From contig NC_019791.1 in the NCBI RefSeq assembly GCF_000317795.1, positions 806,001-870,000 on the forward strand: a stretch of 64,000 nucleotides of DNA. The letters run 5' to 3'. A program made the position numbers and the translations under genes. Source of the stretch: Caldisphaera lagunensis DSM 15908. Lineage in GTDB: Archaea; Thermoproteota; Thermoprotei_A; Sulfolobales; Acidilobaceae. The notes under the pieces were generated by a model. It was not told the DNA's origin. It did no database searches and saw nothing but the letters and a program-made list of their open reading frames with translations. This document shows positions 42,846-55,359 of this stretch, piece by piece. The number at the start of each line of letters is the position of its first letter. The first letter of the stretch is position 1.

Positions 42846-42920
42846 GGGCCCGTAGTCTAGTTTGGTTAGGACGCCGCCCTGACGCGGCGGAGGTCGCCGG
42901 TTCAAGTCCGGCCGGGCCCA
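42846..42920 (+). tRNA. tRNA-Val(GAC)
   Basis: A full cloverleaf of 75 nt in a GC-rich island: acceptor stem GGGCCCG/CGGGCCC, D arm GTCTAGTTTGGTTAGGAC, anticodon stem CCGCC/GGCGG with loop CTGACGC (anticodon GAC, valine), T arm GCCGG TTCAAGT CCGGC and discriminator A. No intron. CCA is not encoded, since ACCT follows, so it is added by the CCA enzyme. The anticodon and all four stems pair without mismatch. Confidence 0.97.
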
Positions 42921-42957
42921 CCTTTCAGTTTTATTATTTTAAAAATTTTTTAAAATA

Positions 42958-43416
42958 TTAAAAAGCATTATGATGAAAATCTTGTTTTAATGCTCTATCA
43001 TTTCCTTTTGATATTTCATTTATTATCATTTCAATTTCATAATGATTTATATTAAATGTTTTCAAGATAGTTTTAAATATTAGTCTAACAGAGTCTTCCG
43101 ATAATATTTTTAATGATTCGTTGTAAGCTAAATAAGGATTAGAAATAAGGATTTCTACATAGTTTTTACCATATTTAGAATAAAAATGTGAATCTAATAC
43201 CATTCTCAATCCTATACATAGTCTATTTATTTCATTATATATCATATTTACTATATCTTCAGAACTTTTAATATTTTGATTTCTTGTGATAGATAAAAAA
43301 TAGTTTATGGGAGATCCCTTTTTATCATTACCATATTGATTATAGATTTTGAAAGGCAATTTCGGTATAATGTTTATGAATACTATTTTTATCACCGGAA
43401 TCTTAATAATCTTCAT
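42958..43416 (-). CDS. Hypothetical protein
   Basis: Up to 152 residues, mixed alpha/beta start then a helical body (SSEDIVNMIYNEINRLCIGLRMVLD; ILSEDSVRLIFKTILKTF). No family recognised. The first 13 residues (MKIIKIPVIKIVF) run through a perfect GGTGA ribosome-binding site. 5 nt after that site the in-frame codon is ATA, not a normal start. ATG 43416 could instead be used leaderless, since a TATA-like GGTATAAG lies about 20-25 nt upstream. It lies just downstream (convergent) of tRNA-Val. Codon use looks like that of its neighbours. Confidence 0.5.
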   Translation of the reverse strand: MKIIKIPVIKIVFINIIPKLPFKIYNQYGNDKKGSPINYFLSITRNQNIKSSEDIVNMIYNEINRLCIGLRMVLDSHFYSKYGKNYVEILISNPYLAYNESLKILSEDSVRLIFKTILKTFNINHYEIEMIINEISKGNDRALKQDFHHNAF

Positions 43417-52857: not shown

Positions 52858-53727
52858 TTATTTACATTCTCTATAAAATAGGTTATATAATAAATAATCA
52901 ACTTTATCTTTATCAAAATATTTCATTAAGATTCTTTTAGCATTTTCTTTCGCTTCATCCAAGCTCAATTCCATAGAATTTCTACCTATTATCCATAAAA
53001 GGCTATCTAAATGAATTTGAGGTATGTTGCTTAATTGAGAAACCTTATCCCATGCTTCTATAGCAATTTTAGGTTTTTTGAGTATCTCTTTATATGAGTT
53101 GCTTTCAATAATTCCGCTTGTATATGAAATGCATGATATTCTGACATCTATTGGCATAGGTATAACGATATTCAATGGTCTTAGTTCTCCTCTATTTTTT
53201 ATAGCATAATAAGACATTTTTATTGAAAATGTTATTGTTTTCTTCCATTCTTTACTATTTAAGGATTTTGCAATTTCTTCCAATATTTTATTGGGTTTTT
53301 CTAATACAACTTCTGGTCTTTCTAAAATTTCTAACAATATATCTCTAGATCCTTTAACTACTTTTTCAATCCTCTTTATCTTTGCAGCTCTTCCAATAAT
53401 TGATCCTTTGCAATCATTAATGAAATTTATTACGTTATTTATCGACTCTTCAAAATTTTTTGGTATATCTTTAGCAGACAAATATTCAGAAAAACATTTC
53501 CACCAATCTTCACCTTTCATTGTTAATTTATAACTTATTAGGGAAACAAGTAAGGAATAAATTGTTGCATAATTTTTTCCCACTTTTTCTTTAAGCTTTT
53601 GAATATAATCAAATTGAGGGTCTAATTTTTCTTCTAAAATTAAGACATTGTCTAACCCGAAGTTTTTTATTGAATCTGAAACTTTAATTAACCTCTCATT
53701 ATTTATATTCAATTTTACCACAACCAT
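52858..53727 (-). CDS. Archaeal 8-oxoguanine DNA glycosylase (AGOG)
   Basis: 289 residues. AGOG-type helix-hairpin-helix protein: the GSIIGRAAKIKRIEKVV hairpin region, TFSIKMSYYAIKNRG, IVIPMPIDVRISCISYTSGII with the likely catalytic Asp near residue 206 and IPQIHLDSLLWIIGR near residue 250. It removes 8-oxoguanine from DNA and cuts the strand (N-glycosylase/lyase), important at high temperature. The start ATG overlaps the end of the thiL-like gene by 13 nt. TTG 53712 is an alternative. The first partial gene of the window has a similar closing helix. Confidence 0.85.
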   Translation of the reverse strand: MVVVKLNINNERLIKVSDSIKNFGLDNVLILEEKLDPQFDYIQKLKEKVGKNYATIYSLLVSLISYKLTMKGEDWWKCFSEYLSAKDIPKNFEESINNVINFINDCKGSIIGRAAKIKRIEKVVKGSRDILLEILERPEVVLEKPNKILEEIAKSLNSKEWKKTITFSIKMSYYAIKNRGELRPLNIVIPMPIDVRISCISYTSGIIESNSYKEILKKPKIAIEAWDKVSQLSNIPQIHLDSLLWIIGRNSMELSLDEAKENAKRILMKYFDKDKVDYLLYNLFYRECK

Positions 53728-54608
53728 CCAAAATTATTTACTTTTTTGTTATTATAATAAACCCCATAACCTTCATCTATTTTCCCTACAACGAAGCACC
53801 TTATGTTTAAATTTGAGCATTCTTCTAAAAAATAGTCTAAATTTTCTTCACTAACAGTAGCAGCAAAATTATAGTCTTCCCAGCTATATAATGCTTCCTC
53901 TTCGTGAATATAGTTATTAAGTAATGGATCTATTTCTATTGAATCAAGTAAAATTTTAACTCTACTTGATTCTGATATATTGTATAAGGTTGACATCCAT
54001 CCATCGCTATTGTCCGAAGAAGATGTTGCATATTTATATATAGGAATATAAGCATTTATTTGAAAATCTGGTGTTATTGTTTTATTTAATATATTTTTAT
54101 CGATTTCATTAATATTTATTTTATTTTCTAATAACTTTTGGGCTAATGAACCATAACCTAAATAACCTATTTGTATTAGGTAATCTCCTTTTTTTGCTCC
54201 ACTTCTTTTTACATATTTTTTATTTTCCATTTTCCCTATAAAAACTACATCTATCCACGAATCATTTATTGATTTATTGCTATCTCCTTTTAAAACAATG
54301 CTTTTTAAATATTCTGATGCTTTACCAATACCTAATGATACTGATTTTAAAACATTTTCATCAGTTGCTCCTACACTATAAGATAATGCGATTGGTTTTC
54401 CTCCAGATACAATAACATCGCTTGCAGACGCCAAAGCTGCTTTAAACGACCAATCTTCATATGTCATCCATGGTAATTTGCTTCTCGACGATGCATATCC
54501 ATCTATGTTAATTAAAAAATCTTCTAAAGGACATGCATCATAATCTTTGCACCATTCGTTTTTGCTATTTTTCATGACTTCATTAATTAGTTTTTGCCAA
54601 TCTTCCAG
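53715..54608 (-). CDS. thiL: Thiamine-monophosphate kinase-like protein (ThiL)
   Basis: About 297 residues of the PurM superfamily with the ThiL layout: LINIDGYASSRSKLPWMTYEDWSFKAALASASDVIVSGGKPIALSYSVGA, then IVLKGDSNKS and RSGAKKGDYLIQIGYLG and SSDNSDGWMSTLYNISESSRV. It phosphorylates thiamine phosphate to ThDP, completing the pathway of ThiD-ThiN. The first codon is uncertain. A good GGGGA site is followed, 6 nt later, by CTG 54608 in frame. The first ATG (54575) is 42 nt from that site. TATA-like sequence at about 54637-54650 fits a transcript with the GGGGA near its 5' end. Confidence 0.78.
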   Translation of the reverse strand: MEDWQKLINEVMKNSKNEWCKDYDACPLEDFLINIDGYASSRSKLPWMTYEDWSFKAALASASDVIVSGGKPIALSYSVGATDENVLKSVSLGIGKASEYLKSIVLKGDSNKSINDSWIDVVFIGKMENKKYVKRSGAKKGDYLIQIGYLGYGSLAQKLLENKININEIDKNILNKTITPDFQINAYIPIYKYATSSSDNSDGWMSTLYNISESSRVKILLDSIEIDPLLNNYIHEEEALYSWEDYNFAATVSEENLDYFLEECSNLNIRCFVVGKIDEGYGVYYNNKKVNNFGWLW

Positions 54609-54711
54609 TTTTTATCCCCTGTTAAAAGAAAATGTTTTTAAATTTAAAAAATCAATATTCAATAAAATATATTAGCAAGGATTAATAACGTAAAAGCGTA
54701 GGGGAATAAAA

Positions 54712-55359
54712 ACGAAAAATCTGCCAATTCATATAGGAATTATACCTGATGGGAACAGAAGGTGGGCGAAAAGAAATGGAATGGATTATTTTACTGCATA
54801 CAAGAATGGGTTTGATAATTTAAAAAGGATATTAGACAATATAATTGATTATGGAATTTATAACGCATCTGTTTATGTTTTAAGTTATGAAAATTGCATA
54901 AAAAGGAGTAAAGAAGAATTAAATTTTCTTTTCGAGTTATCTAAAGAAGGTTTTTCATATATTAGACAAAATAAGAAATTAAATGAAAATGATATTGCTG
55001 TTAAGGTAATTGGGGATACAAGTATAACACCTGAATTTGTTCAAAATGAAATTCAAAAAACTGAAGAAGAAACAAAGAATAGAAAAAATGGATTTTTAAA
55101 TTTAGCGTATTGTTATTCTGGAGAATGGGAAATTAATTTGCTAAAGAAAGGAGAAACAAATTTGCCATCTTTAAACATGAAACCAATCGATTTAGTAATT
55201 AGAACTGGAGGAGTTAGGAGAATAAGTGGTTTCTTTCCATTATTAGTAAGTTATGCAGAATTATATTTTACAAATATGTTATGGCCTGATTTTAATGAAA
55301 ATGAATTAAAAAAGGCATTAAAATGGTTTTCTTTACAACAAAGAAACTTTGGGAAATAA
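54712..55359 (+). CDS. uppS: Cis-prenyltransferase (undecaprenyl/polyprenyl diphosphate synthase)
   Basis: About 215 residues. The catalytic motif HIGIIPDGNRRWAKRNG (54730-54780) precedes the first in-frame ATG (54781), so translation must start before it. Further motifs are VYVLSYENCIKRSKEEL, YCYSGEWEI, PIDLVIRTGGVRRISGFFPLLVSYAELYF and MLWPDFNENEL. Between an in-frame stop at 54691 and the motif there is no ATG, GTG or TTG. The AGGGGA site points to ACG 54712 (6 nt), with ATA 54706 and CTG 54721 as alternatives. It makes the long polyprenyl carrier lipid for glycosylation. Archaeal length is within range. Confidence 0.85.
   Translation, partial: TKNLPIHIGIIPDGNRRWAKRNGMDYFTAYKNGFDNLKRILDNIIDYGIYNASVYVLSYENCIKRSKEELNFLFELSKEGFSYIRQNKKLNENDIAVKVIGDTSITPEFVQNEIQKTEEETKNRKNGFLNLAYCYSGEWEINLLKKGETNLPSLNMKPIDLVIRTGGVRRISGFFPLLVSYAELYFTNMLWPDFNENELKKALKWFSLQQRNFGK

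Follow-up and report, generated by a model that had tools for sequence, protein, structure and literature searches.

By 2021, elongation and termination were the only stages at which non-canonical translation events had been demonstrated in archaea (PMC8211752), and the initiation factor aIF1 is known to favour discrimination against non-canonical start codons (PMC8211752, PMC6237735). Ribosome profiling of Methanosarcina mazei has pointed to CTG starts at a level of 5% among unannotated small ORFs (PMC11456600). In an experiment comparing all 64 codons, ATT was about 0.3% as efficient as ATG (cited in PMC10666635), and with so inefficient a codon strong Shine-Dalgarno (SD) sequences would matter. 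Editing of ACG to AUG is known from chloroplasts (PMC9845219). In the open-licence literature that we searched, no prior report of conserved natural near-cognate starts was found for Caldisphaera, Acidilobus or archaea generally.

Here we analysed a window of 64,000 nucleotides from the hot-spring archaeon Caldisphaera lagunensis DSM 15908 (G000; single contig of 1,546,846 bp), in which uppS and a thiL-like gene are divergent and share one spacer of about 103 nt. Comparison with relatives makes it very likely (probability about 0.88) that uppS begins at ACG and the thiL-like gene at CTG, and that a small set of genes in this lineage shares genuine, conserved near-cognate initiation. Initiation itself is inferred, without peptide, ribosome-profiling or transcript-end data. 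Both codons are one base from AUG and neither is GUG or UUG.

Genomes compared

The Caldisphaera genomes compared were G001, G003 and G004, with G002 as a further relative. A second genus of the same family (g10), which we take to be probably Acidilobus, was represented by G013, G022 and G030, with G022 being a complete genome of 1,496,453 bp. Judged by coordinates, G022 and G030 share the divergent layout of uppS and thiL.

The uppS gene lacks a standard start codon ahead of its catalytic motif

The features of the uppS start region are listed below in window coordinates.

54664..54673, plus strand: TATA-like element AAAATATATT upstream of uppS; a similar A/T-rich element is seen in congeners
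54691..54693, plus strand: in-frame TAA 5' of uppS, from re-reading of the sequence
54700..54705, plus strand: uppS Shine-Dalgarno AGGGGA, with GGGG 7 nt before ACG (6 nt after AGGGGA)
54712..54714, plus strand: proposed start codon ACG, SD-spaced; ACG also in G001, G004, G013, G022 and G030
54712..55359, plus strand: uppS (cis-prenyl/polyprenyl diphosphate synthase), ACG to stop; TIGR00055 166.9 bits, above cutoff; PF01255 178.9 bits
54730..54756, plus strand: codons of the catalytic HIGIIPDGN, 5' of the first ATG; from translation, aligned in relatives
54781..54783, plus strand: first in-frame ATG, within the conserved region, from re-reading of the sequence

Membership of the UppS family is met by model scores above cutoff together with the HxGxxPDGNRR motif (TIGR00055, PF01255). 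In the C. lagunensis frame there is no ATG, GTG or TTG from the upstream TAA through HIGIIPDGN, and a start at the ATG at 54781 would lose the catalytic motif. The sequence-only reading had stated that this motif precedes the first ATG with no standard start after the upstream stop, which held to the base, and that AGGGGA is followed 6 nt later by ACG, which also held. If the TATA-like element is used, it is possible that the uppS mRNA begins close to the in-frame TAA with a short leader that keeps the SD; this predicted 5' end is inferred from the archaeal TATA-to-start distance, which is a matter of general knowledge.

The 3' end of the C. lagunensis 16S rRNA is GGATCACCTCC. Among its genes read from a first ATG, the distance from GGGG to the start peaks at 5-9 nt with a mode of 7, and that from GGTG peaks at 5-7 nt. 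The uppS ACG and the thiL CTG both lie at the modal GGGG spacing.

Conservation of the uppS start in relatives

The uppS start region of C. lagunensis (AGGGGAATAAAAACG) is identical in G001 and G004 with the remaining spacer divergent, so that GGGG, 7 nt and ACG are common to three Caldisphaera genomes. In the second genus, GGTG stands 7 nt before ACG in G022 (GGTGCGTCCCAACG) and G030 (GGTGCAACGTCACG), while G013 (GGGGCTTAGAAAACG) has GGGG 8 nt before ACG with a TAG one codon upstream (TAG-AAA-ACG). The open stretch of uppS is free of standard starts in all six of these genomes. G003 (GGTGGGGGAAGAGATATA) carries GGGGG 7 nt before ATA, and has an in-frame TTG upstream without SD. The start column is thus occupied by ACG or ATA in relatives, and no orthologue shows a standard start there. 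In this genome of 30% GC, ACG represents 6% of threonine codons and CTG 1.6% of leucine codons; given this rarity, their retention in congeners is not what codon bias predicts.

The thiL-like gene and its CTG

The thiL features, all on the minus strand, are as follows.

53715..54608, minus strand: thiL-like gene (thiamine-monophosphate kinase), CTG to stop; AIRS domain PF00586 30.0 bits, above cutoff
54573..54575, minus strand: first in-frame ATG, 33 nt (11 codons) 3' of CTG
54606..54608, minus strand: proposed start codon CTG; CTG in G001 and G004
54612..54614, minus strand: in-frame TAA two codons 5' of CTG (TAA-AAA-CTG)
54615..54620, minus strand: thiL Shine-Dalgarno AGGGGA (GGGG at 54619-54616, 7 nt, CTG); SD also in relatives

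TIGR01379 is the best-scoring family for this gene, although membership is not met (111.4 bits against a curated cutoff of 184.15 bits) and the gene is therefore named thiL-like. No ATG, GTG or TTG is present from the upstream TAA to the proposed CTG in C. lagunensis. This absence is less decisive than for uppS, with an ATG only 11 codons downstream. GGGG is found 7 nt before CTG in both C. lagunensis and G004, where it forms part of GGGGG, and in G001 GGTGG is followed by CTG. In G003 (GGAGGTAATATG) the SD is GGAGG and an ATG occupies the CTG column, which marks this column as the thiL start. The G022 orthologue has an ordinary TTG start.

As for the remaining claims of the sequence-only reading, GGGGA followed 6 nt later by CTG held (GGGG is exactly 7 nt before CTG), and so did the placing of both sites within one spacer of 100 bp. 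The distance of 42 nt to the first thiL ATG was slightly off, being 33 nt from CTG and about 40 nt from the SD. The suggestion that near-cognate start codons are used is supported by the relatives and by the screens described below, with initiation itself inferred.

Genome-wide screens

Two screens were carried out. In the homology screen, all open frames of C. lagunensis were compared with those from 900 kb of G022, and the search was restricted to genes, from C. lagunensis or G022, in which conserved coding sequence begins before any standard start. With the SD correctly spaced, 15 of 28 codons were near-cognate, as against 22 of 131 under shifts of -3, 3, 6, 9 and 12 nt (P = 1e-4 by Fisher's test). 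The second screen relied on coding potential in C. lagunensis alone, without homology, and gave 12 of 20 at the correct spacing as compared to 20 of 91 in the shifted controls (3/20, 4/18, 4/18, 2/17 and 7/18 at 3, 6, 9, 12 and 15 nt). Both uppS and thiL were recovered blind by this second screen. The counts include known false positives and the score cutoffs were fixed after earlier output had been seen, and the P value is therefore a guide and not exact. A plain codon-spectrum test, applied to every homologous gene, showed no more than weak excesses (ACG in C. lagunensis; ATA and ACG in G022), since such rare cases are diluted by the background; limiting the test to genes without a standard start resolved the signal.

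About eight further C. lagunensis genes and several genes of the second genus carry an SD-positioned ACG, ATT, ATA, CTG or ATC. In three further genes tested, orthologues hold ATG, GTG or TTG at the near-cognate column. The candidates are given below.

G000:28887, minus strand: SPOUT-like methyltransferase (PF04252); ACG in G000, G001, G004 and G013; ATG in G003, same column
G000:1385539, minus strand: DUF1614 protein; ATT in G000, G001 and G004; ATG in G002; GTG in G003
G000:367778, minus strand: binding-protein-dependent permease; ATT in G000; ATA in G001, G002, G003, G013 and G022
G000:684011, plus strand: nucleotidyl transferase; ATT in G000 and G004; ATA possible in G013, which also has upstream GTG codons
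G000:776554, plus strand: aldehyde dehydrogenase; ACG in G000; TTG in G004; ATG in G001
G000:256250: EamA transporter, ATT; screen match, no congener comparison
G000:705274: NUDIX protein, ACG; screen match, no congener comparison
G000:713959: ATA candidate; screen match, no congener comparison
G022: DRG-type GTPase, ATC where the G000 alignment (103409) has ATG; no congener comparison
G022: TusA-like ATA, DUF1464 ACG and one CTG case; screen matches, no congener comparison

In the permease, G001 has a TGA two codons 5' of ATA (TGA-ATT-ATA), and C. lagunensis has an in-frame GTG upstream that overlaps the SD.

Among near-cognate cases led by GGTG, 11 of 12 are spaced at 7 nt, as compared to about 25% of ATG, TTG and GTG genes in G000 and G022 (binomial P about 3e-6), for which 6 nt is the commonest spacing. 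A preference of near-cognate starts for 7 nt is possible, and we treat it as a lead only, because the 12 cases were picked by eye from the screens and because several GGTG leaders hold an in-frame upstream stop inside GGTGA, which biases them to the +4 and +7 positions.

Rejected candidates and side observations

Several hits were set aside, and the count of about eight genes excludes G000:155558, 1435458 and 1314448. The GNAT frame at G000:155558-156163 (plus strand) begins inside the conserved region of its family after a TGA, which indicates a frameshift, a recoding site or a fragment. The match at G000:1314448 (AAG) was left out. Protein-gene introns are known in archaea, including a crenarchaeal cbf5 intron, and the Cbf5-like frames without a start at G000:405718 (plus strand) and G022:186971 (minus strand) are consistent with the second exon of such a gene.

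The ATT of the metallophosphoesterase gene at G000:1435458 is not clean evidence, as its leader is conserved at the DNA level in four species, seemingly for another reason. This gene has 31 codons without a standard start. The conserved leader lies at G000:1435410-1435490 (L253 about 1455-1535) in four Caldisphaera genomes and contains the C/D-box-like motifs GATGAGG, CTGA, GGTGGTGA and CTGAGG. It could possibly represent a C/D-box-like sRNA overlapping the gene start; no Rfam match was obtained in this leader at the gathering score. In the window itself, a weak Rfam match to the HPnc0260 antisense RNA (42885-43018, minus strand) overlaps a tRNA gene on the opposite strand and is probably spurious.

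Initiation machinery

An unusual initiator tRNA was sought in C. lagunensis, and the one present is of the ordinary kind: it has A1-U72, and its anticodon stem carries GGG/CCC. The factor aIF1 is present and normal-looking (the search detected it in 42 of 45 genomes), and its gene is apparently read from ATG in G000 and G022. In other archaea aIF1 favours standard starts, and the presence of an ordinary aIF1 here is a point against our main reading. The machinery that we could see offers no explanation for a relaxed start rule; by inference, ordinary tolerance of one mismatch together with a strong SD would suffice.

Right after the aIF1 gene, a frame at G000:1127394 (plus strand) reads ATT-Ala-Gly-Tyr-Pro where the aligned G022 frame reads Met-Ala-Gly-Tyr-Pro, with an SD in neither. 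A leaderless ATT start is one possibility for this frame.

Interpretation

The codons, their spacing and conservation, the missing standard starts and the orthologous ATG, GTG or TTG at matching columns are established by direct comparison. In the mechanism that we propose, a strong SD at 7-nt spacing would set the ACG or CTG in the ribosomal P site, where the normal initiator Met-tRNA(CAU) would be accepted despite one mismatch, and UppS and ThiL would both probably begin with methionine. The set would amount to about 1% of genes in Caldisphaera and the neighbouring genus (probably Acidilobus), using ACG, ATT, ATA, CTG and ATC. The weaker efficiency of these codons would probably hold expression low, and would be tolerated because the SD is strong. 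Initiation, methionine as the first residue and reduced expression are inferences. A bolder reading, which we consider slightly less likely than not, is a lineage-wide relaxed start rule, in which about 1% of genes, some conserved since the genera split, begin at ACG, AUU, AUA, CUG or AUC, in most cases with the SD at a distance of exactly 7 nt, and in which low protein output is permanently set by this means.

Among the alternatives, the one that survives best is that translation of thiL begins at the ATG further downstream (54575), with CTG being merely a leucine codon in an untranslated or accidentally open stretch, and that some other genes are likewise read from standard codons inside the frame. 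In its favour, no catalytic role is known for the first 11 residues of ThiL, an ATG start would keep most of the enzyme, and the coding score from CTG to ATG is barely positive (0.2). However, in G003 the CTG column is taken by the ATG of GGAGGTAAT-ATG, three synonymous changes are among the differences between G000 and G004 over these 11 codons, the SD is not properly spaced for the downstream ATG, and the first ATG of uppS comes only after the catalytic motif. We therefore consider this alternative unlikely.

It is less likely still that a standard start further upstream is joined to these frames through splicing of an intron, frameshifting or readthrough of a stop. Archaeal protein-gene introns do exist, and exon-like ORFs occur at G000:405718 and G022:186971. 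However, stops lie one to two codons before the start in G013 uppS, G000 thiL and the G001 permease, and the upstream sequence is poorly conserved, yet a correctly spaced SD is kept.

Sequencing error or pseudogene decay might be suspected as each case is one base from ATG, but is practically ruled out, since these codons are shared between genomes that were assembled separately and that belong to several species in two genera, with frames intact and enzymes conserved. The sequence-only reading would have been refuted by relatives with ATG and a local sequencing error here; the opposite was found for uppS, where ACG recurs in five relatives. For thiL, CTG recurs in two relatives, and the single ATG, in G003, sits in the same column behind an SD. 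RNA editing that creates AUG or UUG ahead of translation (by a C-to-U change in ACG and CTG), with ACG-to-AUG editing in chloroplasts as a precedent (PMC9845219), can be all but dismissed, as it leaves the conserved ATT starts unexplained and ATA would require a different edit.

Near-cognate initiation at uppS, thiL and the small gene set remains our preferred reading. The finding is broader than the sequence-only reading had suggested: a multi-gene near-cognate set, conserved across two archaeal genera or more, which comparison supports well but for which direct evidence of initiation is lacking. If true, initiation joins elongation and termination among archaeal non-canonical events, and these genes provide natural substrates for testing start-codon choice by aIF1 and aIF2. 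UppS would also be an example of the real proteins that archaeal gene finders limited to ATG, GTG and TTG cut short or overlook.

Comparison with known systems

Studies of start discrimination by aIF1 in Sulfolobus and Pyrococcus (PMC6237735, PMC8211752) concern the machinery that would set the use of such codons. They are biochemical, and name no natural conserved near-cognate-start genes in the sections bearing on it. Bacterial infC (IF3) with its AUU, together with other rare bacterial AUU and CUG starts, resembles the present cases in that an SD precedes a near-cognate start that is conserved. However, infC is an autoregulated initiation-factor gene, whereas the archaeal set consists of about ten unrelated genes with ACG, ATT, ATA or CTG, for which no regulatory link has been shown. 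Chloroplast non-AUG starts (PMC9845219) are similarly conserved in evolution in particular genes, but belong to an organelle in which some ACG codons are edited to AUG; the archaeal ATT and ATA exclude C-to-U editing as a general answer. The CTG small ORFs of Methanosarcina mazei (PMC11456600) share with our cases the proposal of near-cognate initiation in an archaeon. Those are unannotated small ORFs with CTG only, supported by ribosome data, whereas the genes described here encode conserved metabolic enzymes, use five codon types and are supported by comparative sequence.
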